Shown: in pieces, positions 1-26,500 of the stretch
How the letters are laid out: each line of letters starts with the position of its first letter
How positions within the stretch are numbered: the stretch's first letter is position 1
Assembly: GCA_018902385.1 (NCBI GenBank)
Contig: JABSSW010000040.1
Span: 1 to 64,000 of the forward strand
Length of the DNA: 64,000 nt
Direction: 5' to 3'
Source: Physcia stellaris
Lineage: Eukaryota > Ascomycota > Lecanoromycetes > Caliciales > Physciaceae
Notes under the pieces: generated by a model
What the model saw: the letters and a program-made list of their open reading frames with translations, nothing else
The model's database searches: none
Told to the model about the DNA's origin: nothing
Made by a program: the position numbers and the translations under genes

Positions 1-475
1 TGATAATGCGAAAAATAATCGTTTGTTAACAAAATAATCAAATTCGTGTTTTGACGATTGTTATCAATTTTTTTTTCGCAACGAAAAAAATTCGTTTTGT
101 GAAACTACAAAGAAAAAAAAAATTAAACGTTTTCGAAAATTGAAACAGAATGTCGAGATTCGCTGAAATTTCTGCTATTTTATGATACGACGTGTCTATC
201 GATTTCGACGATTCGTTGATAAATGAACTCAAGAAAATCGCAACGATGTCAAAATTGCCAAAATCCGAATATCTGATGATGATTGAAATCAAATCCTATT
301 TCTCGAAAACATGTTAAAAACATTTTACGAAATCGCGTTGATTGTTTCACGAATCACGAACGTTAATGTGCAAACTGAATTTAGAATTTTCAATTTTTAT
401 ACGATCACTTGAATTATTTCAATGAAACGATACAACACAATCAATGTTTCGACAAATCATTAATCTTGACTGTTT

Positions 476-751
476 GTGCGAAAATCATTCAAAAGCTTTT
501 CAAATATTATGCGAAAACAAAAAAATAATGAATTGATATACGATCTTGTTAATATTCTAAATTCAATCACAAGCTATCGATTTATGAAACTTGAAATGAA
601 AATGACAATTCCGAGAAAATCACAAAAAAAAAAGCATGCGTATATCAATGACGTTCGTAAACGATTCTTGAATTACTATCGAAATCATTATGATGACAAA
701 ATATATGATGATTTTCAACGCGCTATTTTTCAATCGTTCGATAAAAAATAA
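476..751 (+). pseudogene. Unrecognised 91-residue cassette in AT-rich element
   Basis: Lys- and Asn-rich open frame ending directly at an octamer pair (748-772). No family was recognised. It contains no tryptophan, as do nearly all frames of this block. The frame may be one exon of a larger decayed gene, since CTAAC and ...AATAG, resembling a branch point and 3-prime splice site, follow the octamers. Treated as a fossil part of the large element. Confidence 0.3.
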
Positions 752-1505
752 TGCATCAAAATAATGCATTGAAATTCAATCTAACAAAACAATAGATTTT
801 TTTATTAATTCGATTTTGCGACCGAATCGAAAATCGAAACAATCACAAAACGAAATCGAACGTTATTTTTTATATCAATCATGAAAAAAATTTTAATTGA
901 CAATATTGAAGCGATAATGTTTCGAATTTTCTCGATTGATTCGAATGACGAGAAATATTTTGTTCTGTTCTGTTTTATCGATAGAAATGAAGCGAATTTC
1001 AATTTGACACGTCGAGTTTGTAAATATGATCGAACAATGTTGAATCAAGAAACGATTAAAAAACGATGATAATCAAATATTATAATCGGACGATAAATGC
1101 AAAAGTCTAAAAATGTTGTTCGAAAATTTGAAATTTAATAAAGCGATGAAAAAACGAAAATAATGAAATTGCGATGAAAAATGCTTTTCGTCGTTCAATA
1201 AAAAAAGTGTTTCGTTTTATGACTTCAAAATTTAATAATAAACGATTTGGAATGAAATCTGCAATAGTCATCGATAATGCAAACAAATAATGCATAAATT
1301 ATTTGCATTCAATCAAAACATCGAAAGTATTAATTAAATTGCGCATAATCGCATATAATTGCAAAATTTAATTTTCGAGTCGTATAAGCGTTGATTTCTT
1401 TTTTTCTTTTTTTTTTTTTCAATTTTCACTCTAGTATTTTAATTAATTTATTATTAATAATTTATTTGATAGATTATCTCGTAACGCAAACAACATGATA
1501 ATTTT

Positions 1506-1793
1506 ATGAAATTTGAAAATCTGTATTTTTCATTTTATTGTCTGGATATATTATTGATAATACAACAGAATCTGTTCGAAAATACTTTTCAAACGACAAA
1601 TTTATCAAAACATTTTCAAAGTTCAAACACTTTCGAGATTGGAAATTTCAATTCGCGAAACGATGAAACATTCATGAAGAACGAAATTGATATCGATTTC
1701 TCGATTTTGAAAAAATGTTTAAAGTCTGAACTGAATGACACGAACAAAAAGCAGAAAAAAGACATCGATGACATGAATCAAGATAATGCTTAA
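1506..1793 (+). pseudogene. Unrecognised 95-residue cassette in AT-rich element
   Basis: Open frame on plus with a hydrophobic N-terminal stretch (FYCLDILLI) and an acidic, Lys-rich C-terminus that ends in ...NQDNA at an octamer pair (1,782-1,806). The next ~150 bases repeat the same pattern (a second octamer pair near 1,943 with similar flanks), so a small tandem duplication is visible at 1,782-2,100. No family recognised. Confidence 0.3.
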
Positions 1794-2221
1794 TAATAAT
1801 GCATTCAACGATTAAGAACTAATAATTGATTTTTAGATACAGTGATCACGATGTCTTTCTGAACGATGTCAGAAACAAAAAAAAAATGAAAAATCAATTC
1901 GTTTGCTGAGAATTCGGAAAAATCATCGATAAAATGAATCGAAATAATGCTTGATAATAATGCATTTGACGAATAAAAACTGAAAAATGATTTTTAAATA
2001 TCATGATCACGAAATCTCTGAATGATGTCGAAAACAAAGAAAATGAAAAATCAATTCGCCTGCTGAAAATTTCGAGAAAAATATTGATGATGTGCATCGA
2101 AAATCGCGAAAAATATCGAAACTTAACGATACTGTTGCGAACGAAAACATCGTCGCATTTTTAGCGATTCAGAAACGGACTGATCAATTTCAGATCGATA
2201 ATAGTTCGCGAAAAAAAAGCC

Positions 2222-2780
2222 GTGAATAGACGAGCTAAAGATTCACGAAATAAAAATCGTGAAAATGATGTTGAAAAAAAATTCGCGCAAAAAAAAAAAA
2301 AATTTGTGACTTCAACAAGAAGATTTTCAAATCGATTTGATCGTTTTGAAATTTCGCGTAAAACTGTTTCGAATAATGTTCCGAGCAAAAAATCGAAATC
2401 AAAAAAGATAATGCATATTGATAATGCATTTGATTCGCACAAGTTGATCTTTATTGAATCAAAAGACAAAACGCGATTGAACGTTTTTAAAAAATTCGAA
2501 AATATCAAAGATCGACTGATTTTTATGATATCAAAACTGTCATTTCAACGAATGATTCGAAAGATTTTGTTTGAAATAATTGATCAAAATGTCGAAATGC
2601 GAATTCAAACAAGTGCTTTGAAAGCATTACAGAAAACAATCGAAATTTATGTTATTGATATATTCGAAAATAAATATTTTTCTTAGTTGTTCGAACTTTG
2701 AAATCATAGTTTTACTGACACTTATTAGTTGCTAACAAATTAGTTATTCATGCAAAACGAGTAACTGAAAAAAATTAAAA
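2222..2780 (+). pseudogene. Histone H3/CENP-A-like fold, copy C
   Basis: The frame 2,222-2,686 has a basic N-tail followed by a recognisable H3 core: FMISKLSFQRMIRKI (compare H3 LLIRKLPFQRLVREI), a longer loop IDQNVE as in centromeric H3 variants, then MRIQTSALKALQKTIEIY (compare LRFQSSAVMALQEASEAY) and VIDIFEN (compare LVGLFED). After a ~75 base gap with branch-point-like and AG signals, IHAKRVT, the H3 C-terminal signature, appears near 2,745. Canonical H3 recruits H4 in the nucleosome; the function here is unknown. It lies on the opposite strand to copies A and B and is part of the decayed element, not a host histone locus. Confidence 0.7.
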
Positions 2781-2789
2781 TTTAATTCA

Positions 2790-4015
2790 GAACAAGAATA
2801 TTAAATTAGTTAAAAAATTATTGAACATGTTAACTCGTATATAAAAATTAATGTCATAAGCTTTTCATTGAAAAATTCAATCAATTGAAGCTTTCAAAAC
2901 GAATATTGATATTAATTATATTCGAATTTTGAAAAATTAGAATTTAACTGAAATACATTTTTAAGATTAGAGATTTGAAATTCAATATAAACGTTTTTTC
3001 AATTCAAATTCAAACATATATATGATATGATACAAATATTTGTTTTTAAAAAATACAAATTTGAAATTAAAATATTAACGTACAATAATTTAAACAATTA
3101 ATAAAATAAAAATATAATTACAATAAAAACGTACGAAATAATATGAATTGACATTTCAATATTATATTATATATAAATTATTATAAAATTACAAAAATTG
3201 TCATTTTATTAATCATATGCGAAAATATAAAATATAATAAAATAATAATATAATTATAAATTTATGATTGTAATATAAATAATATATGTTTGATGTTTGA
3301 TAATTTAAATAATTTATATAAACATATATAATATATTTGAAATAACATATCAAATCGTATTGTTTTAATTTATATACGAAATTAATCGAATAATATTTTA
3401 TTATTTTTTCGTTTTTTAAATCGATATTTTTTATTTATTTTTTATTTCGATGTATTAAAATTATTTGTTTTCAACAATCGAAAATGAATTTCAATTTTAT
3501 TAAAAAACAAATATTGTTATTATGAACATTTGTTTTGTTTTATTTATGATGATTTTTGATTTTTGAAAAATTAAATATTCGAATAATTCGATATTTAATA
3601 TTTTTTTGCACGCAATAATTTAATGCAAAAATTAAAATTCATATTTATATTGCGTTATTGAAAAAACATATATAAAATTCAAACAATTCAATAATTAAAA
3701 TGAAAAATAATGATATAATGTATTGTTCAAAATTGACAAAAAGTTATTTATTATATTATTATTATTTCATGAAATATTGTTCTAAATCGAAATCAATTAT
3801 AAACAATATGAAAATTGACAATATTTTGTTGCGTTATATTTGACAAAAATTTTGTTTTCGTTTTATATGATTTTGATAATGATTCGACAACAAAATCGTC
3901 AAATATATACATAATTTGACATTTCGCGTTTTTTCAATGTTATTCGATTCAATTTTCATTTCATTCTCATAACAAATATCGATTTGAAAAGCAAAGTTCA
4001 AACGCGAATTTAAAT
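2790..4015. other. Extremely AT-rich spacer, no gene seen
   Basis: About 1.2 kb dominated by A/T runs with scattered single C and G and no reading frame above 60 codons. No octamer pairs occur here, unlike the flanking cassettes. I see no recognisable coding or repeat unit. Confidence 0.7.
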
Positions 4016-4039
4016 TATGTAAATTAATTATTCAACAAA

Positions 4040-4660
4040 ATTAACGTTGTGTTTAAATGATTGTGACGTTGTTGTTCACAAACATTTTCAAATTTTTCGA
4101 ACAAGATGAATATTTTTATTTGAAAAATTATTCGTTTCGCATGAATCGTTTTTTGATAAATCATTTTATAAAAATTAATTATCAAAGATAATGCGCAAAA
4201 ATAATGCATTTGATTTATTTTCAAACATTTTTGTGACAAACGTTTCGATATTTTTGCAAAATTTCAAAAATCGATATTTGAATTTTGACATTTTTTTTAT
4301 GTTTTGCATCATTTTTTCACAAATTTCGCGAACGATTTTTTTTGCAATTAATAATTCAATGATTTTTGAAAACGTTTAATTTCGCGCAATGCGATCATTT
4401 CGAATTTTGTTCGTTTGTGTTTTTACTGATGTGTTAATCAATATTCGATAACGCATAATTTGAATGCATTATCGATTTGTTCGTCATTTTTTTTAATCAA
4501 TGATTTTAAACGTTTTGCGATTGATTTTTGTTCGATTGAATTGCAAACTTGAACGCAAAAAAAACTTGAACGCAAAAAATTTGAACGCAAAAACTTGAAC
4601 GCAAAAGATTTAAACGCAATAAATTTGAACGCGAAAAATTTGAACGCGATAAAAATCAAT
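4040..4660 (-). pseudogene. Histone H3-like fold, copy A
   Basis: On the minus strand, inside the first 3.1 kb repeat. The C-terminal H3 signature IHAKRI with a following basic/hydrophobic helix is at about 4,080-4,130, and the rest of the core lies upstream (to about 4,440), preceded by a Lys-rich extension. An octamer pair in antisense orientation (4,187-4,211) sits in the stretch between the alpha-2/loop region and IHAKR, where copy C has a gap with intron-like signals. Identification rests on similarity to copies B and C. Broken in several places. Confidence 0.55.
4555..4645 (+). repeat. AT-rich minisatellite, AACGCAAAAA-TTG unit
   Basis: About six imperfect copies of a 13-16 base unit built around TTGAACGCAAAAA. 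A homologous run is at 7,675-7,745 in the second 3.1 kb unit. It falls upstream of the H3-like cassettes on the minus strand and would encode a Phe/Ala/Lys-repeat tail if translated. Confidence 0.7.
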
Positions 4661-4669
4661 TTTGTGATT

Positions 4670-6085
4670 TTTTGACTGACGTTTTGCTTTTGTTCACATC
4701 AATGTCATTATTTATTCGTCGATTTGCTTTTTCATGCGACGTTTTTCGATTTGTTAATTTGTGCATTACTTTAACGCATTATTCGATTTATTCAAAACTC
4801 GAACATCGTTATCGTCATTCGTTTTATTATCGTCAGAATTATTATTATCGAATTGATTTGCATTCAAATTTTCATTTTCATCAAGTTTCTTTTTTATTCG
4901 AAATATTGTTTTCGACATTTTTCTGATTTTCAAATTTTTGAATCGTTTTCATTGCGAACTTTTCTGAAATTCTCGTATTTTTAACAGCTGTTATAATTTG
5001 TTAATTTATGCATTATTTTCATGCATTATTTGACTTATTAAAAAAAAAATTATTATCACTATTGATATTACTATTGACATCAATGATTTCATCATTTTTT
5101 TTTTTTTCACGTTTCGTATCGATTGTCGCTTTAGATATTCGCATCACGTTTTTCAAAACACTAAATTTTGAAGCGACTGGATATTCGTCATAAACGAAAC
5201 AAACAAATCAATTTTCGCGAACATAAATTTTGAAAATTGTTAATTTATGCATTATTTTCATGCATTATTATTTATCCGTGTTTTGAACATTTTCCGAATT
5301 ATCATCAATATTACTTTCGTTATTTTCAGTGTTTGTTTGAAAATCGACAGCATTTAAAAGTTGATTTATGAAATTGATGACATCGATATCATTTGATGAA
5401 AACATGATTCAATTTTTGTGATTTGAATATAAATTGAAATATTTTAATTAATGTTAATCAACGCATTATTTTCATGCATTATCTTATTTATTTATTATTG
5501 TCACAAATGAATATTCAATAAAATTGTCGATACGTTTTATCGAAATCTGTTCAACAATCAGTAAATTCATTTCATTGCGATTCAGATTTGTTTTATCTGC
5601 AAACGTTGCAAAAAGTATTGATGCGATCGTGTTGAATGCTTGACTAAATGTTTTTGCATCGAAATATTGCTTTTGATTTCGACGTCTAAATTTTTCCGAT
5701 AAAGCGCAACAATCGCGTGTCGACAATTTTCGATCGATTTTCTATAACATTTTCAACTTTTTTTTTCGATACTGATAAATCATTTCGCATATTCGATTAC
5801 TTTCTTCTGTAATATTCGTTATTTTTCGCTTCATCATTTACGCTGTGAATATTCTAAAATTGTATGCATTATCATATCGCATTATCGATGTTAATCAACT
5901 TTATTGCAAATAAACTTTCAGATTTGACGACTAAACATTATTTTGTATTTTTCACGTTTCTTTTTTTCGTTTTCAAATATGATTCAATTGTTTATCGCAT
6001 GACGTTTGCTAATGATTTCAATCACAAATTTGTTTTCAATTTTGTCGATCATTTCGTATTGATTCATACTCGACGTACGTTCTAA
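4670..6085 (-). pseudogene. Minus-strand cassette series, first repeat unit
   Basis: Five short frames between octamer pairs read on minus: about 4,790-4,925 (starts MSKTIFRIKKKLDENE, ends in an Asn/Asp-rich tail and NKSNNA), 5,040-5,240, 5,280-5,410 (starts MFSSNDIDVINFINQ), 5,484-5,726 (LSEKFRRRNQKQYFDAK and KTNLNRNEM) and 5,890-6,085. Several end in an acidic, Asn-rich tail immediately before an octamer pair. They could be exons of one decayed gene upstream of the H3-like region, or separate small genes. No family recognised. Confidence 0.35.
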
Positions 6086-6139
6086 ACATTGTTCAATGAT
6101 GATGCATTATTTTGTCGCATTATCGTGCTGATATTTTCA

Positions 6140-7025
6140 TTCAAAATGTTCGAATTCGCACAATTTACATTTGTTAAAATTTATTCGACGAACTCAAAAG
6201 TATCGCTAATCGCGAGAAAAAAAAAAAGCGTTGATCGAATATCCAAATCAAACTGTACAAAGCACAAAATGTCGACAGTGTCGTTGTGTTCAAATTCAAA
6301 AAAACTTGATGAAAATTGCTGTCTGACTTGAATCTGATGAAAAAAATCGCAAAACTTTGAAAGAAAATGATAAGAAAAAAATGTTCGATGCGTATTGAAA
6401 ACGGCAATCATGATAATGCAATCGAGTAATGCATATAAAAATTGCGATTTCTAATTAGTTTTAAGCGTGTTTTCTGAAAAATGAAATTTATTAACAAAAT
6501 AAAAAAAACTCGACGAACAAACACGACAAAACGATGCAAAAAAAATGCAATCGAAATCATACGTCGAACAGCAAACTCCGAATCTGCGCAACAATCGGTG
6601 AATTCTCAATGCCAAAATCTGCCAAAGTCTGTTGATTTCATTAATGATTCACTTTAGATGCAAAAGCGATGACGACATTGAACGCGCGCAAAACGCAATA
6701 AGAAAATATTTGTATTCAATGATGATGAAATTGATTGCGCAACGCGTTCTTTATGACGATATGAAAATTCGCGCATTGAAAACGACGAAGTTCTGCTGAC
6801 GCGATGAAAAAAATGCGAAAAGCAATTAATGATTTTGTTTTTTTTCGCACAATGCGAAAAATCGAAATATTAAAATCGATTTTCTCAATGCGATCAAAAA
6901 AAAAAAATGCAAAAAGCGACGACGATGACGAAAAGAAAAAACAGCGTGAAAAAATCCGATAACGAAAACGAGTCCGAAAACAGCGAAAATACGAACGATA
7001 AAGATTTCATAATGTTCGATTTCTA
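6140..7025 (+). pseudogene. Small Cys-motif gene, first repeat unit
   Basis: Plus-strand counterpart of 9,228-10,096: a Cys-containing N-terminal segment (KIYSTNSK, then a Cys-rich stretch), an octamer pair at 6,413-6,433 followed by a TTTCTAATTAG branch-like signal, and a basic/acidic C-terminus with poly-Lys and Asp/Glu runs. It converges with the minus-strand H3 gene of the next unit. More decayed than its duplicate. Confidence 0.4.
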
Positions 7026-7159
7026 AATTGACTAGATAACGAAAATGCATTATCATCATGCATTATCATTTAATTTTCAATTCACGCATGACAAATATTG
7101 ATATGAAAAAGCAATTCAAACACGAATTCAAATTATGTAAACTAATTATTCAACAGAAA

Positions 7160-7580
7160 TAACATTGTGTCTAAATGATTGAAACATTGTTATTCACAAA
7201 CATTTTCAGAATTTTTCGAACAAAATGAATATTTTTCATTTGAACAATCACTCGTTTCGCATGAATCGTCTTTGCATTAATCATTTCATAAAAATTAGTC
7301 AACAAGATAATGCGCAAAGATAATGCATTTGATTTATTTTCAAACATTTTTGTGACAAAAATTTCGATATTTTTTTGCAAAACTTCAAAAATCGATGTCT
7401 GAATTCTGACATTTTTTTTTTATGTTTTGCATCATTTCTTTCACAAGTTTCACGAACGATTTCTTTGTAATTAAAAAGTTCAATCGTTTTTGAAAACGTT
7501 TGATTTCGCGCAATGCGATCATTTCGAATTTTGCTCGCTTGTGTTTTTATTGATGTGTTAATCAATATTCGATAACGCAT
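7160..7580 (-). pseudogene. Histone H3-like fold, copy B
   Basis: Minus strand, second 3.1 kb unit. VRIQTSIFEVLQ and IEIFVTKMFEN (compare H3 LRFQSSAVMALQ and EAYLVGLFED) are followed, after an insert carrying an antisense octamer pair (7,304-7,328) and a GACTAAT branch-like sequence, by TIHAKRV and an IHFVRKI helix (compare AIHAKRVT...DIQLARRI). This is the clearest evidence that the insert inside the H3 fold is intron-like. Fossil copy, broken in several places. Confidence 0.65.
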
Positions 7581-7749
7581 GATTTGAATGCATTATCGAT
7601 TTGTTCGCGATTTTTCTTAATCAATGAATTCAAGCGCTTTGCGATTGACTTTTTGCTCGATTTATTGACAAATTTGAACGCGAAAATTTCGACGCAAAAA
7701 ACTTGAACGCAAAAAGTTTGAACGCGAAAAACTTGAACGCGATCATGTT

Positions 7750-9180
7750 CATTTTTAGTCGTTTTGTGATCGACGTTTTGCTTTTTGTCACATCAATGTA
7801 AAATTCATTCACTTGCGAATTTGCTTTTTTTCATGACGCGTGTTTCGATTTGTGAGCCTGTGCGATTATTTTGACGCATTATTCGATTTATTTGAAACTT
7901 GATCATCATTTTCGAATTCAGTATGAGTAATGACAATATCATGAGTATCGGATTTGTGAACAATTCTGATTTCATTTTCATCAAGTATTTTTTTCATTCG
8001 ATTCATCGTTCTCGACATTCTTCCGATTTTCGGACATTTGAGATTTTGATATTTCGGATTTTTTTTTGAATGCTTTCATTTTCAGCAGTTGCGATGATCT
8101 GTTAATTTATGCATTATCGTCATGCATTATTCGACTTACAAGACGAAAAATCATTATGATTATTAATATCAACGATTTCATCATTTCGCGCTTCTTCAAA
8201 TTTTTTATCATTAGCAAAGTCCAATAGACATCTCAACAGCGATTTTCGATTTAAGTTTTCGAACAACGCTCGCAAGAACGTCTCAATTGACCGACGGGAT
8301 ATTGACTGAAAACGAAACAAACAATGCAATTTTTTCAACAAGACGCTTTATCATCTGTTAATCTATGCATTATCTTTTTGCATTATCATTCTTATCAATG
8401 TTCACATTTTTCGTTGAGATATCATCAGCAATATTCTCATCGTCTTCACTCATCGTCATAGCAATAGCAATTGTTGACTGAACGTCTTGAAAATCTTTAA
8501 ACTTTGAATGAACGTCGAAATATTTTAAATTCCGTTAGTTTATGCATTATTCTCATGCATTACTTTATTTATCTAATGTTGCTACAAACGAAAATTTAAT
8601 AGAAATGTCATTGATTACAAAGTTAGACATGCGATGAATCGATTCGCATCAATTTTTGCCCATCAATCAATAAATTCATTTTTTCGCGATACAGACTTGC
8701 ATTATTTGCAGACGTTGCGAAAATATCGATGCGATCGTGTTGAATGCTTGACTAAATTTTTGCATCGAAATATTGCTCTTAATTTCGACGTTTAAATTTT
8801 TCGATAAACGCAACAACCGCGTGTCGACAATTTCCGATCGACTTTCTATAACACTTTCAGTTTTCTTTTTTTCGATATTGATAAATCACTTGCCAAATCT
8901 GATTATCTTCGTGTGTAATATTCGTTATTTTTCGTTTCAAAGTTGAATGCATGATCATATCGCATTATCGATGTTAATCAATTTTATTGCACACAAGTTC
9001 ACAGACTTGACGAATAAACATTAGTTTGAATTTTTAAATCTGATTCATTTTTCGTTTTCAGATATGATTTAACTGCTTATCGCAACACGTTTGCTGATTA
9101 ACTCAATCACAGATTTGTTTTCAATTTTATCGACTAATTGATACTGATTTATATTCGACGTACGTTTGAACATTGTTCAA
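7750..9180 (-). pseudogene. Minus-strand cassette series, second repeat unit
   Basis: Duplicate of 4,670-6,085. Frames on minus include about 7,885-8,010 (MSRTMNRMKKILDENE, ending NKSNNASK), 8,120-8,341 (acidic end EIVDINNHNDF, then KSNNA), 8,390-8,530 (acidic, ends NIDKNDNAKR) and 8,590-8,840 (homologous to 5,484-5,726). Cassette order and octamer spacing are preserved between the two units, so the arrangement predates the duplication. No family recognised. Confidence 0.35.
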
Positions 9181-9227
9181 AAATGATGCATTTCTTTGTC
9201 GCATTATCGTGTTGATATTTACATTCA

Positions 9228-10096
9228 AAATGTCCGAATCTGCACAGTTTACATTTGTTAAAATTTACTCGACGAATTCAAAAAGTGTCGCTAATCGCGA
9301 AAGAAAAAAATTGATCGAAAATTCAAATCAAACTTTACAAAACACAAAATGTCGACAGTGTCGCTGTGTTCAAATTCAAAAAAAATTTGATGAAAATTAC
9401 TGTTTGATTTGAATCTGATGAAAAAAATCGCAAAACTATGAAAAAAAATGATAAAAAAAAAATGTTCGATGCTCGTATTGAGAACGACAATCATGATAAT
9501 GCAATCGAATAATGCATATAAAAATTGCGATTTCTAATTAGTTTTTAGCGTGTTTTTTGAAAAATGAATTTTATCGACAAAACAAAAAAAAATTCGACGA
9601 ACAAATACGACAAAACGATGTCAAAAAAAATGCAATCGAAATCATACGTCAAACAATTAATTTCGAATTTTCGCAACAATCAGTGAATACTGAATATCAA
9701 AATCTGTTGATTTCACTAATGATTCACTTTAGTTTCAAAACGATGAAAACATTGAACGAGCGCAAAACGCAATAGAAAAATATCTGTATTCAATGACGGA
9801 ATTGATCGCGCAACGCGTTTTCTATGATGATATGAAAATTCGCGCATTGAAAACGACGAATTCTGCTGACGCGATGAAAGAAATGCGAAAAACAATTAGA
9901 AATTTTGCATTTTCGCACAATGCGAAAAATCGAAATATTAAAATCGAATTTCTCAATGCGATCAAAAAAAAGAAAAATGCAAAAAGCGACGACGATGACG
10001 AAAAAAAAAAACAACGTGAAAAATTCCGATGACGAAAACGAATCCGAAAATAGCGAAAATACGAACGATGCAGATTTCATAATGCCCGATTTCTAG
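9228..10096 (+). pseudogene. Small Cys-motif gene, second repeat unit
   Basis: First segment (9,228-9,413) reads MSESAQFTFVKIYSTNSK..., then TKCRQCRC...FDENYC, a C-x2-C-x-C...C pattern that could be half of a small zinc ribbon. An octamer pair (9,496-9,516) and a TTTCTAATTAGTTTTTAG branch/acceptor-like stretch follow. The last segment (9,793-10,032) is helical and strongly charged (KKKKNAKSDDDDEKKKQ). Function unknown; nucleic-acid or chromatin binding would be a guess from charge. Confidence 0.4.
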
Positions 10097-10289
10097 TTTG
10101 ACTAGATAACGAATATGCATTATCATGATGCATTATCACTTGTCTGTGAATAATGATCAATTTTTCTTTTTTTCAAATTGCATTATCAAAATTCATTATT
10201 CATTATTCATGTCTAAAACTTCTTGTAATATTTTTTTTTTTTTTTCAATAGAGTCTGTAAGAATAAAATCTATTTTTATTATTTTTTAT

Positions 10290-10536
10290 CAATAGTATTT
10301 CAAGTCAAGTCAAGCTTTTCAAATCAAGTTTCAAACTCAAAAAAAAAGCTTGATTTGACGTCAAGACAAATTTCAAATCGAATATGTCGACTTGAGTTTG
10401 AACTTGACACTAAAATCAAAAATTTGAATTTAACGTCAAGACAAAGCTTCAAGCTCTACATTTCAAACTTGACTCGATTTTTCGAGTCAAGCTTTTGATC
10501 TTTTTCAAGCTCTTGATTCGACGCGGTCAGTCTAAT
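10290..10536 (+). repeat. TCAAG-rich subterminal and terminal region of large element
   Basis: Repeated TCAAG/CTTGA words, ending ...TTGATTCGACGCGGTCAGTCTAA. It aligns with 12,330-12,506. I read it as the right end of the large array. The adjacent DNA (10,537 on) is Copia sequence, so the array appears to have inserted into the Copia fossil. Confidence 0.6.
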
Positions 10537-13500
10537 CAAAACAGCAACAAGTTGATATACAGAAATTCGATATATCACAAACAAAAACGTTTCGAAAAAT
10601 GAAAAACAGAAAAGAAAAAACAATGAGCGATCGTTTGCAATATAACGAACAAAAAATTCGAACATTTTTTTTTGACGATTGAATTTTCATGCGTCTTTTT
10701 GCATCAACATTTCTGTTCAACAAATCGAATTATGTCAATATGTCATAACAACAATAAATTGATTTATCGATATCGTTATTAACGAATGCATTGATCGCGT
10801 CATATTGACGAATATTAAAATCGAAAACGATTATTATGATCATTAATGTTCGAAAAATTTTAATAATTAATGTAACAACATAAACATTTTGTTCGATTTG
10901 TTGAAAATTTTTTCGAACACACAATTTAATTTTATGTTTTATCAAATATTTTCATTGTCGAATTTGTATTTGAATATTCACGTGATAAATATAAATTTTT
11001 TTTTGCGTTTTTGACATGATGTCATGAAATTTTCTTTCAAATTTGTTTTGATTGTAATGTTTTGATTTTCACGTCAATGATTCGTAAAAATTCGACGATT
11101 TCAAAATGTTTGAACATTTGATGATAAAAACGTGATTCGACGAAAAAATCGTCACGATGCGATTTTTTTTTTCGTCATTGAAATCATGAATGTTTTATAA
11201 AATGAACGCATTTTTTTTGCGAATGCATTTTTTAAAACGATGTAATGATTGAAATTTCGAAACGAATTTGATTTGCGAATACGAATGAATTTTTCGAATT
11301 GAATATTGATTTCGTCAATCGTTGTTTTCGTTCAATGTTTCGATTTTTTTTTTTTCAACGACGATGCAAACGAAAGTAATTTCTTTATCGTTTCAAAAAC
11401 GACAAATGACGAAAAATTTTTGTAACGACAAATGACGAAAAATCAAACGTATTTGACGTGTTTTTATCTTTTGACGAAAATGAAACAAATGAAAATAAAT
11501 ATTTTGATTCAAAATCGTTTTCAATTATTTGTTTGTGAAATTTTTTTGCATCGCGATCGATAATAAATTTTGTAAATGTTAATTTTCATACATTTTCGTC
11601 GTTGTTTGATTCGATGTTCATTATTTTCGTGAAATCGTTTTGCGATATGTCAAACGTATCGTTAATAAAAAAAAACTCGTTAACGAATTGAATTAAATTT
11701 ATTTCGTTAAAACGATAACGTGAATTTTCGTTGAATGTAACATCACGTGTACGTATAATTTTTCGTTGATTAGAAATTCAAATAAAAAAAATATTAATAT
11801 TGTCATAATTTACAAAAAAATCGATGTGTGTTTTGATTTTCATCTTTTTCTTTTTCGAAATATTTTTATTCAAAAAATATGCTTTTTTTTATATTGAACG
11901 ATATGAACAAAATTCGATTTTTTATCGATAATCATTTCGAACGATATTTTTCATTCATGTTTTTTGATGAATGTACGATTCATTATGTAATCAGCGATTC
12001 CATTGATTCACGATCATAAATAAACAAATAAATTTGTTTCGAATTTCATTGTTCGTGATTTGATCAACAATATGTTTAAACTGATCGTCGAATCAAGTTT
12101 CAAATCGACATGTTCGAATTTGACTTGAATTTGATTCAAATTCAAATTTTTCATTTAAAATTTGAATTTGATGATCAAGTTTCAAACTCAATGTTGCTTG
12201 AATTTGATTTGAAAATGACATTATATACTAATTATAATAAAAAAAGTTCTAGTAATAAAAAGTTATTAATAAATGCATTATCTTTTTGCATTATTTTTTT
12301 TTAAAACGTAATATTTACTTCAAATTTGATCATTTTTAAAAAAAAATCAAATCAAGTCAAGTTTTCAAATTCAAACTTCAAATTCAATTACAAAGTTTGA
12401 CTTGATGTTAAGACAAATTTCAAGTTCAAAATTTCAAACTTGATTCGATTTTTTCGAGTCAAAAACTTGATTCGATTCAAGTTCTTGATTCGACGCGATC
12501 AGTTTAAATATGTTATCTAATCGTTCGTTGTGATCGTTTTGTGTTGAAATATCAACGATCGAAAATTCAAATGTAATGTTTTTGAATACGCAATAATTAT
12601 TTCAGTCGATATTTAACGAACGTTCGTCGTCAAAACGTACAAATACGATCTTGTCGTTGTATTTGATTTCGATAATATGAATGATTCGAATAAATATTTT
12701 CGTAATTTGTTTTTTGTTTTCGTGCGTGTATATTATGTGAAAATTTGTTTCGAAACATGTTACGTGTAATATTTATTTGTGTTTGTTCAAAATCGTTGTC
12801 ATATCGATGAAATCGTATGTAATACGATAAAACGACTTGTTTGAAATTTTTGACTTTACAAAAATTTGAATACAATTCGATGTGCTTTGAAAAAAACACA
12901 TTTTTCGCATTTGTTAATTAATGACATTTTATTTTTGTTGATGAATTTCATTTTTTCAATTGTTTTTGTAAATATTGTATGACGTCATTATTCGCATAAA
13001 CGAAAAATTGATGTCATTTTAAAATAAATTCTTGTCGCACGATGATTGCGAAAATGTTCATTTTTTCAAATTTATTATTTTCGAAAACGTAATGTGTTTT
13101 TATTCGTGACACGAAAACGATCGACGATCGTTTCTGTGCAAATATTCATGAATTGTATCCAAATGCAATTTTTGTTTGCGAAAATGTTTTTCGCGACGAT
13201 ATTAATCATAAAATCAAATACATAATTGACATTTAAAAATTTCATTGAATTTTTTTTTGTAAATGTATCGACGTTGATACGCATTCGATCATATGTTAAA
13301 ATAAAAAATGATTTCATGTCGAACATAATTTTCGATTCGTTTGTGCAATTTCGTTTTTTTTGAAAACGTTGTTTTATTGTGTTGTTAATCACGTGAATGT
13401 CGAAATCGTAATTCATAATTCACGACGAACGAAAAAAATAATTTAACGAAAACGAATCGTTTGTAAACGATTTTATGACATTGACGTGAATGACGACGAA

Positions 13501-14745
13501 AAATTTTATTTCGATTTTTGTATTTTTGTTATCGTTTTTTTTTGACGTTTTTCGTCAATTCGTTTGATGTTTTGTTTTATTTGTTTTTTTTTTGAATTTT
13601 TTTTCGTTTCGTTTATTTTAATCACGATTTCTGATTTCAATTTGAAATCATTTGAACGTATTTTTCGTTGAAATAAAAGCAATCGTCGTAAAAATACTTT
13701 TTTCGCAAATGCAAAAATTTCGAAATTGATTTTGATTTCGAAATGACGAAATGTCAAAATAATTTCGATAATTTATGTGATTATATTCGTCAATAACGAA
13801 TATCGAATTGAATATCGTTTTTTTTTTTTCGAATTTTTTTCATGCGCATGTGATGTCGAAAAATCTCGATAAAAATGAAAAATTGAATTTCGTGATTCGT
13901 TACAATGTTTAATTGAAATAATTGTATTTCAACGAAAATAAATGCGATTTTGTCAATTGCGTGTAAAAAATCACGAAAAATTCGTTTGTTATCGATGATT
14001 TCAACAATTTTCGTTTGTTTAACGAAAATCAACATTTTCAAATAATCGTTTAATTAAATATCGATGTTTTAACGATTGAATGAACTTTTGATCATACGAT
14101 TGTATTTTTGTTTCAATTTCAAATTTTTAATCGAATCGATAAATGCAAAACGTGTTTTGAAAACGCGAAAAACGATTCATGAATGAATTTCAACGATTTG
14201 AATAAAATTGAAATTTGTAATCGTTGTTGTATCGTAAATGTGATCGATTATTTTTGTCATGAAATTTTTTTGTTTTTTTCAATTTTGAAATTTTTTTTTG
14301 TATTTCGATGTCGTTATTTTGTATCGAACATGTTTTTCGTTGAAATTCGCATTTTGTTGTGTGTCAAAATTGAATTTTAAAAATTCAATTTTTTTTATTG
14401 ATTTAATATCGTTGAATGAATCGATGAAATTTCAAATCGAATATTCGATAATTTTAGTTCGTACGATTGATAATCACGCGTTTCAATTTTTGAAAAAATT
14501 CAATTTGAATTTTCGTTTCGTATTCGTCATCGTGCTGAACGAACGAATAAATAAAAAAAAATTCTTGATTGTTGTTGATTGTAAAAAAATGTAAACACAA
14601 AAATGTTTTCGCGATGTTTTGATTTTTCGTGTTAATTTGTCGAAATAATCGAATGTTGAAAATTTGAATAATTAATTAAATCACGTATTGAATGCAACAA
14701 TTAAACGTGATTCGAATTCATAATTGTAAAACTTCTGAATAAATA
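10537..14745 (-). mobile_element. Ty1/Copia LTR-retrotransposon fossil
   Basis: Minus-strand pol order is visible: gag-like segments 13,506-14,041, a protease-region segment 13,075-13,416 (LNVNYVFDFMINIVAKNIF, resembling the Copia LxNVLYVP pattern), integrase segments about 12,630-12,900 and 11,660-11,840 (the C-terminal RKIIRTRDVTFNE signature), and a reverse transcriptase fragment 10,730-10,945 (RQYDAINAFVNNDID, compare Copia QYDAVNAFVNAxLD). It carries the same CpC/CpT-depleted decay as its neighbours. A 430 bp element is inserted in the integrase region, and the 3-prime part is cut off by the large array. No convincing LTR pair was found. Broken throughout (well over ten breaks); old. Confidence 0.8.
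12077..12506. mobile_element. 430 bp nonautonomous TIR element with 8 bp target duplication
   Basis: Ends are inverted repeats: TAAACTGATCG-TCGAATCAAG at the left and its near-exact complement at the right (one CG dinucleotide differs). An identical 8 bp direct repeat AATATGTT flanks it (12,069-12,076 and 12,507-12,514). The interior has the TCAAG-rich words on both sides and one octamer pair at 12,272. The right half aligns with 10,115-10,536, so it looks like an internal-deletion derivative of the large element. It is nested in the Copia integrase region. Confidence 0.8.
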
Positions 14746-23283: not shown

Positions 23284-24050
23284 TTCATATGCTCACATGT
23301 CATTGAGAAGACGCTGGCTGTTGGTGTCTACCATTGAAGGGAAGAAGCAGTATCGAAAGTGAAAGCATGCGGATTCTTACTTGAAAAGGAGGCTCATCAA
23401 TGCGCGCAGGAGGCACAGTAGGATTGTACTACTTGATTGTTTGACTACCCTCTCCTTGTGTGCATTGACTATGCATTCGAGGTGGCAGAGCAAACTTCGT
23501 TACCAATGGTCCAAGCAAATTTGATCTCTAGAGGAAATTCCTCCGTATCGTAAATTTAGAAGATCAGGATTGGGGCAACCCAGAGGCAGCGGGTGCCAAT
23601 TTTATGGAAACTACACGATCAATGATAGAGCTCATCCTATTTGCTAAGGTATGTTGTCCCGCGTGGCGCGCGAGTGTAAGCCTAGGTACCTTCCGTCCCC
23701 TTGAACGGGGTGTAGATCCGAAATATCCAGTAATTTGGATGTTAGCCACGTCGCGCTCAGAACCCTGAGACATCATCTTGATCGTAGAGTAGCCTGATAT
23801 CCCGAGAAGCTGAGACTGAAATTTCGACTTTAATAAGAAGAGATTACCTGCTGCCGTAGTTCTATTGCAATTCAAGCAATCAGCATGAGTCTGCAGAGTT
23901 GGGAAGACACGTGAGCTGGCGATTAAGCTTGGCTTACGGAGATCCGCACCATTAGTCCTGTCACTGGCCCTAACCCTATGGGGGCATAAAATGGGGACAA
24001 TACTCGTTATTTTGGCCGCAAAGATGTAGCGCATTTCACATACCACTTGT
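23284..24050. other. No gene; edge of transposon-rich segment
   Basis: The minus-strand frame 23,564-24,055 has no recognisable feature. The block 23,940-23,980 contains GGCCCTAACCCTA and is the inverted partner of 27,460-27,505. Sequence becomes AT-rich at about 24,050. Confidence 0.5.
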
Positions 24051-24389
24051 GCCACGAATCCAAGTCAATTTCGATGTAAAATCTGTAAAATACCATTGTA
24101 AAATGACTATTATTATCCAATTAAACTTAATCGCAATTGTTTTGATGTTAAATCGTCGCTGTTCTGATGAAATTGCGTCATTGTCGCAAAACTCCCACAT
24201 GCGAAATTTGCGAAATATTAAATCTCAAATTCATTCATTTATTCTTATATTCCGGTTTAACGCCTGTTTTCCGTTTTGTATAAACCAATCTTCTTTTTCG
24301 AAATTGTAAGAACGTACATGATTTTTGTTTGAAATTTCAACAATTTCATCGCGCTTCGTTGATCATAATCACGTCCGCTGATTTTTTTT

Positions 24390-25862
24390 TTTCTGTACTC
24401 ATTTTTTTCGTAATTCAATAATCTTCTGAATATGACGTGGACATTCGTTCGATTCAATGTTGTATACGTGTTTGAATGAGTTTTTGTATCATAAACGTCT
24501 GAATGTCGTCGTCATATTCTTTTTCGTTTTCGGAATGCCTGAATCAATTAGCGAATTGAAAATTTGTTGTATAGAAGTAAACTCATTTCTTTCGTCAACT
24601 TTGCGTTTCATTCATCATCAACAAAACTCTATCATGTTCAAATCGAGCGAATTGCCGCACCAAAGAAACTTCATAACATTGACATTCATGAAGACTCTGT
24701 GTAAAATCAGCAGACGTCGTTAAAAAAAAAAAATAATGATTCACTGATTTTGCATTTTCGAAACATGTGATGAAGCATCGTTCTTCATGACGAAAATGTT
24801 CGATTTATTTTTCTGACATTTCAAAGCAAAAATCAAGCAAGTGAAAAAAGAATCTGCTTTTGATAGCGAAATCAATCAATATCATTTCTAGTTTTTCGTT
24901 CTATCTTGTCGTGATTTTTGTCTCATTTTCATTGAGATTTCATTTTTTCAAATTGTTGAAGCAAGTCTTCGAATCGCATTGTTGAGTTTTCATTCGATTT
25001 TCATGATTGATTTCAGTCGCTTGTTCATGACACTAATGATTTTTTTGACTAACTTTCGTTCTTTCACAGTCTCGTTTTTGAAGATGTGACAAGAATTTTT
25101 CTTGTCATAAGAAAAACAATTTCAGAACATAAATTCCGAAAAATTTGTTATCGAGAGTAGTACATCGAAGGCGATTTATTCTAAAAAAGCTTATTTTTTC
25201 AACGAGATCGCACACACGTTTTAGAATACTTCTCATCAACTTTACGTCAAATCCGTATTTTTTTCGACGATTTGTCATTACGTCAATAAACTCTCCGCAT
25301 GAAATAAAAAGTTTACACATGATTACGCTGATTTCATCGATCCATATGACGTTTTTTCAATTTTCAATAGTTCAGTTTTCGTACTTTTTAGCGAATTCAT
25401 AGCGATTTTGCTTCATCTTGTCCGTCAGACCTGATTTCCGTGTAAATTTGACGCAATGAAAATCGTTCTTCTTGAAAATGCGACGTATGATAAAACCGAA
25501 ACATCGTGTTCGTATTCTAAAATTCCAACAGACATTTCGCGATCGTTGCGATCTTTTTGCACTGAGTTTGTTAACAGAATTATCATACACAATCTGAAAT
25601 ATATGATTTATTTGAGATCAGAATCGCTTTCTTTTTCGCAGGGCCACAAATAATTCGACCGGCCTAAACGGATCGCATTTTGTACGTACTCAATTTTCAG
25701 AACTGAAAAGCTTTCTGGATCGAAGTTTCGATCTTTCGTTTTCTGCAGAAGACGTCAAACTGTACGAGAACGCTTGATATCGACTGTTGTACAAGCGTTC
25801 ATTGCAGATACTCCATACGTGTAAAGAGCAAGAATCTGAAAACGCTGAGCATCGATATACAT
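24390..25862 (-). pseudogene. Tc1/mariner (DDE_3) transposase remnant
   Basis: Domain order on minus: an HTH region near 25,862-25,700 (FQILALYTYGVSAM...IKRSRTV, then IEYVQNAIRLGRSN); a second HTH-like region near 25,590-25,380 (RKSGLTDKMKQNRYEFAKKYEN); the first catalytic-Asp region near 25,340 (WKNVIWIDEISVIM, compare NVIWTDETSVIL); and the last catalytic region near 24,650 (SLDLNMIEFCWWWMKRK, compare NSPDLNMIEPCWPWMKRK), ending ECPRHIQKIIEL. The frame is interrupted by several stops and frame changes over ~490 codons; for example, two adjacent frames are needed between 25,590 and 25,105. Such enzymes cut and paste the element at TA dinucleotides; this copy cannot encode an active one. Confidence 0.85.
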
Positions 25863-26439
25863 GACGCTTTGTGAACGTTATTTAATTGACTTTTTGACCT
25901 GATGAAACGTGTAAAAAGCGCAATGACGAAAAATTTTCATTTTTTCGTCATTAATCACGTGTTTCCACGCGTTTTCGTTTTTCTGCCTTGTTAGCAGTCT
26001 TGATAGCTCGAGTATTTATTGGAAAAGCGACATTGACCGCAGCAATAGTAGCAGTTGCAACTGAAGCGATCGCAACGAATTCAAAAAGTTGTCGAGATTC
26101 GTCGTCTTCGAATCAAATGCTCGAGTTCAGTTCATCGATCTGAGAGAAAAGAAAAGCAAATGAAAAGCTCTGACTCTAGATGAACGTCTTTGTATCACAG
26201 CAGAAACAGAAGACGTCGCTAACTGAGTCACAACAAAAACAGAAACAGAAGCAAGAGCAGAAGCAAAAATGGAAAACTCGTCAGAAAAAAACGACTTCTC
26301 ACTAAAAATAACGATTTCTCAACGGAATCATCAGATTTCTCGAAGTCTGATGACTCAACCGCTACAAAAATCTGCTTGAAATATCAACAGAAAACCGATG
26401 TGACGTCACAACAGGAAGTTCACGCAAAGAACCGGCAGG

Positions 26440-26500
26440 AGGTCGTACTGAGGCCGAAACAGAAGGTCGTACTGAGGCCGAAACAGGAGGTTGTACTGAG
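26440..26500 (+). repeat. 27 bp tandem repeat
   Basis: AGGTCGTACTGAGGCCGAAAC-type unit repeated about three times, the last diverged. The preceding ACAGAAGCAAGAGCAGAAGC stretch (26,215-26,275) is simple-sequence too. If coding it would give Thr/Glu-rich repeats (GRTEAET), but no long frame persists. Confidence 0.75.

Follow-up and report, generated by a model that had tools for sequence, protein, structure and literature searches.

Can a fungal transposon carry its own histone genes? The question is raised by the AT-rich DNA that opens contig JABSSW010000040.1 (C40) of the ascomycete Physcia stellaris (GenBank assembly GCA_018902385.1), of which positions 1 to 64,000, hereafter the window, were analysed. 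A first-pass annotation of this sequence had proposed that positions 1 to 10,536 form part of a giant AT-rich element, bounded by terminal inverted repeats (TIRs) and perhaps KDZ-like or virus-like, which contains three histone H3-like genes, would be new among ascomycete elements and might manipulate chromatin. The analysis described here indicates that this DNA is very probably part of a hAT cut-and-paste transposon with H3-like cargo, the reading frames of which were later broken by C-to-T change of the kind caused by repeat-induced point mutation (RIP).

Extent, ends and copy number of the element

Window positions 1-10,534, at the start of the contig, correspond to the right-hand ~84% of a ~12.5 kb hAT DNA transposon; as contig C40 begins at window base 1, the left ~1,960 bp fall outside the window. 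A search of the genome (44 Mb in 147 contigs) revealed left ends with the predicted structure, ~1,960 bases beyond the equivalent of window base 1, at C4:181008, C27:571388, C30:149959 and C47:362388. The right end, which had been annotated at 10,536, lies at window 10,534, with equivalents at C6:449720, C47:374863, C72:180280 and C4:166144. Read inward, the TIR is TARAYTGATCG, followed by TCAAG-rich DNA, at the left ends in C4, C27, C30 and C47, and the same motif is present at the right ends in the window, C4, C6, C47 and C72. From end to end the element measures 12,476 bases in C47 and 14,865 in C4, which has additional DNA near the right end; single ends are missing in some copies, the left in C6 and C59 and the right in C30. 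Other AT-rich repeats adjoin the C30 and C59 copies.

A 751-base query containing the plus-strand H3-like core (window 2100-2850) detected 18 genomic copies, including that in the window, with 78-100% identity; this count is a lower bound, such that the element occupies at least 18 places. Seven copies were fetched, which align at 88-95% identity across most of the window and have their parts in the same order and at the same spacing in every case; a second, lower alignment is also present in these comparisons, owing to an internal duplication of 3.1 kb. The array is therefore bounded, in other copies, by the left ends that had been predicted for it, and these data support the existence of a transposable, multicopy element carrying H3-type histone genes.

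Assignment to the hAT superfamily

The ends, the 8 bp target duplications and the dimerisation domain Dimer_Tnp_hAT (PF05699) place the element in the hAT superfamily, rather than with the KDZ-like or virus-like elements to which it had been compared. Target duplications flank one of the two copies that retain both ends (C4, with GAAAAAAC on either side) and both of two short relatives. One of these, a non-autonomous element on C30 (C30:162927-163360) with the same kind of ends, is flanked by TTTACAAT; the other is the 430 bp mobile element at window 12,077-12,506, whose resemblance to the right end of the array had been correctly recognised. PF05699 has 22 genomic matches at E <= 0.1, 11 of them within copies of this element, where they lie ~1.0-1.3 kb upstream of the plus-strand H3-like gene; the domain is accordingly found in 11 of the 18 known copies, and exceeds the curated cut-off in nine of the 11 when stops are read through. 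The genome-wide profile search listed none on C40, which holds the window's own copy, the equivalent stretch of which has a broken frame (Table 1). PF05699 matches outside this element's copies, with in-frame TGA stops, occur on C42, C34, C41, C21 and other contigs. By eye, a BED-like finger and the residues TTDNAFNN, as are typical of hAT transposases, can also be made out in the left part.

Several observations weigh against this assignment. In C47, the sole other copy with both ends, the 8 bp flanks do not match (ATTCATTA and CGTATGAT), and the duplicated sequence in C4 is of low complexity. Scanned one by one against Pfam, the left part's open frames gave no transposase domain, whilst a 189-residue stretch of the transposase retrieved no solved transposase from the PDB, its best match being an enzyme of an unrelated kind at E 0.18. 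DUF659 (PF04937) did not match within the element, its one weak match in the genome being on C25; this domain is not defining for all hAT transposons. Furthermore, no intact copy is present among the stretches read, for which reason past activity of the transposase, and its having moved this unit, can only be inferred.

Histone H3-like genes of two types

Taken alone, the window provides weak evidence for the histone fold annotated in three of its regions, because unrelated families match its AT-rich frames at similar values: two of the 49 open reading frames in the window matched Histone at E <= 0.05, unrelated families matched AT-rich frames at E 0.002-0.05, and chance-level matches in the same frames extend to values such as 9.9e-5 (UTP20_N). 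The plus-strand region (2165-2683) matches the histone profile PF00125 with an E value of 2.6e-4, its 21.7 bits being under the Pfam cut-off of 26.4, and positions 7171-7416 on the minus strand do so with an E value of 3.4e-3. The minus-strand copy at 4.0-4.7 kb has no nameable Pfam match; it is 88% identical to that at 7.1-7.6 kb over 218 nt, and also aligns to genomic copies. It is the sister copies that settle the histone identity. Those of the plus-type gene score 51.0 (C47), 47.7 (C27) and 40.3 (C53) bits against PF00125, with a best E value of 2.1e-13. Among solved structures in the PDB, histone H3 is matched by the C47 copy at E 8e-12, with a three-residue insertion in loop 1, and by the minus-type copy in C59 at E 3e-11, without the loop insertion. 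The fold is thereby upheld for all three regions.

A longer loop 1 is a character of CenH3 (CENP-A), and that of the plus type is longer by three residues; yet both types score more highly against host H3 than against host CenH3, the plus-type core at 139 against 124 and the minus-type core at 131 against 88. The plus-type core is identical to host H3 at 28 of 60 positions and to host CenH3 at 25 of 63. Direct copying of either host gene is unsupported, there being no close identity, with the caveat that mutational damage blurs the comparison. The two minus-type genes lie within the duplicated 3.1 kb modules, each paired with a plus-strand gene of unknown function, and all seven fetched copies align into both modules. 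Since the modules are ~79% identical to one another, compared with ~90% between copies, the duplication predates the spread of the element.

Genome-wide there are 34 PF00125 matches at E <= 1e-3, none of which is on C40. Judged by position, 22 of these belong to the element, as they overlap one of the 18 plus-strand H3 regions or are no more than ~7.5 kb away from it; the matches on C91 and C70 look similar. The other ten include genes named by eye as host H3 (C26), CenH3 (C7), CenH3-like (C6) and H3-like (C52). The CenH3-like gene (C6:415593-415998) is a second one besides that on C7. The H3-like gene (C52:303483-304009, minus strand) is divergent and GC-normal, appears to be open and to have three exons, and stops after the second histone helix. 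At C25:250800-251500 there is a GC-normal relic which has exons and intron-like inserts in common with the minus-type H3-like gene.

Damage at CpT and CpC

The element has a GC content of ~27%. In positions 1-10,536, the ratios of observed to expected dinucleotides are 0.12 for CpC, 0.44 for CpT, 2.71 for CpG and 1.25 for CpA. Depletion is stronger still at 10,537-14,700 (CpC 0.02, CpT 0.15, CpG 3.67), and host DNA at 28-64 kb has no skew (CpC 0.96, CpT 1.05, CpG 0.88). Two further blocks of the window, 10537-14700 and 24000-26500, consist of AT-rich, CpG-rich DNA, the second being partly depleted (CpC 0.38, CpT 0.77).

When the seven copies were compared with the window, in alignments no shorter than 1,500 bases and no less than 86% identical, the pooled C-to-T count was 269/285 at CpC (94%), 2462/3493 at CpT (71%), 655/15587 at CpA (4%) and 225/12727 at CpG (2%). 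As damaged DNA retains few CpT sites, the changes were polarised with the GC-normal C25 relic as the reference, giving 148/184 at CpT, 72/109 at CpC, 19/276 at CpA and 17/132 at CpG; overlapping alignments of several copies were pooled here, and these counts are not independent. This spectrum rules out a natively AT-rich element. Of the AT-rich TIR element originally described, the TIRs are genuine, but the AT-richness was acquired through C-to-T mutation at CpT and CpC.

Clustered C-to-T change on both strands and confined to repeats, a mark of RIP, is evident in this family and in the composition of the neighbouring AT-rich DNA. However, the preference for CpA that is another such mark is lacking, with CpT and CpC changed instead, and the DNA scores negative by the classical indices of RIP, TpA/ApT being 0.36-0.63 across positions 1-12,000. 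The change is consequently termed RIP-like with a CpY target (CpT and CpC); it may represent RIP proper, a premeiotic, RID-dependent process driven by homology in the sexual cycle. Published CpT signatures accompany CpA, according to excerpts of the articles concerned (PMC4352252, PMC6180176, PMC2621366), and in the literature searched on CpT/CpC RIP, likewise consulted as excerpts, no case sparing CpA was found. Three loci matching the family of cytosine DNA methylases (PF00145) were detected, at C3:340323, C5:498855-499792 and C6:791557, and are candidates for the enzyme responsible for CpY change; the last of these matches contains two TGA codons.

Because its H3 frames are broken, the copy in the window is unable to manipulate chromatin now, a possibility that the first-pass annotation had raised.

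A paired motif in putative short introns

Twenty paired sites based on the heptamer GTAATGC, or its damaged form ATAATGC, are distributed through the element (Table 1), in which exact 7-mers number 46, whereas 200 first-order random sequences averaged 3.3 and never exceeded 8. Genome-wide, the exact pair ATAATGC-N6-ATAATGCAT was found 235 times and the reversed pattern not once; those listed are mostly on contigs with an element copy, together with C14, C19 and C29, which have no known copy of the plus-strand H3 region. The undamaged GTAATGC-N6-GTAATGC occurs eight times (0 reversed) at six loci, of which three were read: the C25 relic, the C52 H3-like gene and a short element on C41. In the relic, the motif is within a 41-base stretch, GTAAGT ... 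GGCTAACAG, that has all the marks of an intron, with GTAAGT ... CTAACAG intact; in a neighbouring intron-like stretch, the 13-base unit is repeated three times in a row. The first putative intron of the C52 gene is made up of the undamaged pair, directly after ATGGCACGTCTTAAGCAAG. The short element (C41:62400-62900) is TCAAG-rich and non-coding, with the undamaged pair in its middle.

Within the transposon, the motif is found in intron-like inserts of the H3-like and transposase genes, and the majority of those oriented with a gene resemble introns of very small size, based on a repeat of 13 bases. Introns cannot account for every site, however, as some are found after a stop codon (7047) and within non-coding short elements; the motif might also be a promoter or a recombination site. 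Fungal introner-like elements are similar in being introns with a common sequence, just as one motif recurs here in many putative introns of a single element; unlike them, only ~20 bp are common here, in both orientations, and the motif is also found outside introns and in the non-coding short elements.

Table 1. Features of the hAT element and its short relative in the window
Feature	Position	Strand	Basis and remarks
hAT transposon copy, right-hand ~84%	1..10534	+	Full length 12,476 bp (contig C47); copy alignments and ends
Dimer_Tnp_hAT-equivalent stretch (transposase C-terminus), frame broken	852..1077	+	92-94% DNA identity to the domain in C47 and C27
H3-like gene, plus type	1485..2766	+	Upstream exons; tail-like stretch 2354-2407 (SRKTVSNNVPSKKSKSKK); histone core ~2501-2671; VIHAKRVT remnant 2743-2766
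3.1 kb module, copy 1: minus-strand H3-like gene and plus-strand unknown-function gene	3947..7067	.	~79% to 7068-10141, between window and sister copies
H3-like gene, minus type, copy 1	4024..5741	-	Core ~4120-4415; putative upstream exons to ~5741; frames broken
Decayed unknown-function gene, possible Cys-rich stretch	6085..7025	+	No accepted Pfam match; second copy 9169-10096
3.1 kb module, copy 2	7068..10141	.	Alignment to copy 1
H3-like gene, minus type, copy 2	7160..8885	-	Core ~7230-7545; putative upstream exons to ~8885; frames broken
TCAAG-rich right subterminal DNA and terminal inverted repeat (TAGACTGACCGCGTCGAATCAAG inward)	10280..10534	-	End at 10,534
430 bp non-autonomous relative	12077..12506	+	Like ends; AATATGTT on both flanks (identical 8 bp); one central paired motif
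20 paired sites [AG]TAATGC-N6-[AG]TAATGC, 13 bp offset, both orientations	748..10136	.	Pattern search
Paired-site starts, 1-10	748, 1274, 1783, 1944, 2408, 4188, 4763, 5010, 5249, 5463		
Paired-site starts, 11-20	5866, 6104, 6413, 7047, 7307, 8111, 8367, 8544, 9496, 10117		

Relationship to published elements

The novelty first claimed for such an element among ascomycetes does not hold, as hAT transposons carrying H3-like genes have been published for Pyrenophora tritici-repentis (PMC3538342) and six Mycosphaerellaceae (PMC6710886); what follows draws on excerpts of these articles, and the likenesses drawn are between descriptions, not aligned sequences. The P. tritici-repentis element, reported in 2013, is a 5.6 kb hAT with a transposase, a central gene and H3L, present as ~26 near-identical and mostly intact copies; its H3-like gene is represented by expressed sequence tags (ESTs), and matches neither H3 nor CenH3 (PMC3538342). 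The hAT dimerisation domain, inverted ends, central gene of unknown function and H3-like gene are all shared with the P. stellaris element, and a deletion derivative exists as well; the element described here differs in its size of ~12.5 kb, its three H3-like genes of two types and its heavily mutated copies.

In 2019, hAT elements bearing H3-like sequences, one or two to an element, were described in Pseudocercospora fijiensis and five relatives within the Mycosphaerellaceae (PMC6710886), where RIP is CpA to TpA. That of P. fijiensis is 9.5-9.9 kb long, with a reported DUF659, and the species has 784 H3-like copies. As in P. stellaris, the elements of P. fijiensis, Cercospora and Sphaerulina are large, inactivated hATs with 8 bp duplications and H3-like copies; they have a 16-residue insert in the second H3 copy, are inactivated by RIP and are confined to AT-rich blocks. 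Unlike these elements, that of P. stellaris has undergone CpT/CpC change and has three H3 genes per element in at least 18 copies. Moreover, the H3 sequence in that study was read as an intronless transcript copy, and the authors argue for transcript capture followed by pseudogenisation in their species, whereas the genes described here are interrupted by intron-like inserts. With regard to the mutations, CpT sites in repeats are also subject to C-to-T change in Botrytis, Sclerotinia and Magnaporthe, ascomycetes that have a RID-type gene (PMC4352252, excerpted); there, however, CpT is changed together with CpA, whereas in P. stellaris the change spares CpA and affects CpC no less than CpT.

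The element is thus of the same kind as the published H3-carrying hATs. It differs from them in its size, the three H3 genes of two types, the CpY damage, the short putative introns based on a common motif and the GC-normal relatives outside repeats.

Origin of the element and alternative explanations

The history that would account for these features starts with a ~12.5 kb hAT transposon, the left part of which would have encoded the transposase and the remainder cargo: a plus-strand H3-like gene and a divergent pair, in which an H3-like gene on the minus strand faces away from an unknown-function gene on the plus strand. Tandem duplication of this pair would have come before the spread of the element. 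The transposase would then have carried the complete element with its cargo to 18 or more sites, creating 8 bp duplications as it did so. Subsequently, the repeats would have been detected by a RIP-like process that converted C to T in CpT and CpC contexts of either strand, cutting the GC content to ~27% and breaking the reading frames, but leaving CpG and CpA. The H3-like proteins were presumably once made, and were probably for the most part passenger cargo, with a possible benefit in the past.

The H3-like genes might instead be selected, element-encoded chromatin proteins, forming variant nucleosomes with which the element is more readily expressed or moved. Two H3-like types in one element, the plus type with a loop three residues longer and the minus type with a normal one, would fit this idea, as would the reports of H3-like hAT cargo in Pleosporales and Capnodiales, the ESTs of the distinctive Pyrenophora gene and the continued alignment of both types, in sister copies, across most of the H3 core. 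The copies read are nevertheless broken, such that the histone-like residues could equally be leftovers; the ratio of non-synonymous to synonymous change (dN/dS) is swamped by C-to-T damage, and the case made in PMC6710886, as excerpted, is for capture and pseudogenisation. We regard selection of this sort as doubtful, though deserving of serious consideration. Somewhat less likely again is that an old H3L lineage owned by the elements, being neither H3 nor CenH3 and having its own introns and tail, is common to the hATs of several orders, was kept because it was helpful and left GC-normal host genes such as that on C52, the elements themselves having been destroyed in P. stellaris by a strictly CpY-directed RIP enzyme.

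Composition so unlike that of the host (CpG observed/expected 2.7, GC ~27%), along with the number of histone genes, could suggest an endogenous virus, or a giant element resembling one, that encodes histones of its own. This is barely credible given the hAT ends, 8 bp duplications and dimerisation domain, and CpY mutation explains the composition; the 49 window open reading frames produced no accepted viral hallmark in Pfam, only weak, chance-level matches, and similarly no accepted match to KDZ or Maverick hallmark genes, in a test made weak by the broken frames. It is very unlikely that the locus is a nest of unrelated repeats, with the H3-like genes outside any one mobile unit: the repeats adjoining the C30 and C59 copies, and the loss of one end in C6, C59 and C30, might give that impression, but order and spacing are constant in all seven fetched copies and the ends in C47 are 12,476 bp apart. 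As for the loss of GC, RIP targets CpA in most ascomycetes, and three PF00145 loci are present here, as in fungi with RIP; yet RIP of the usual CpA-directed kind, or simple mutational pressure towards AT, is a highly improbable cause when CpA was changed at only 4% and 7% of sites in the pooled and polarised counts, against 71-94% and 66-80% at CpT and CpC, when the classical indices are negative and when host DNA at 28-64 kb is unskewed.

Implications

A hAT transposon with RIP-like damage thus provides a further case of H3-like genes on elements of this superfamily. The presence of two H3 types on one element makes an accidental, one-off capture less likely, and makes selection for histone cargo testable. 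A RIP-like process targeting CpT and CpC can yield DNA that is AT-rich yet CpG-rich, which is missed by standard RIP indices, and scans based on these would call such a genome free of RIP. What most deserves to be followed is the target of the mutation, along with the relatives of the H3-like genes that lie outside repeats.

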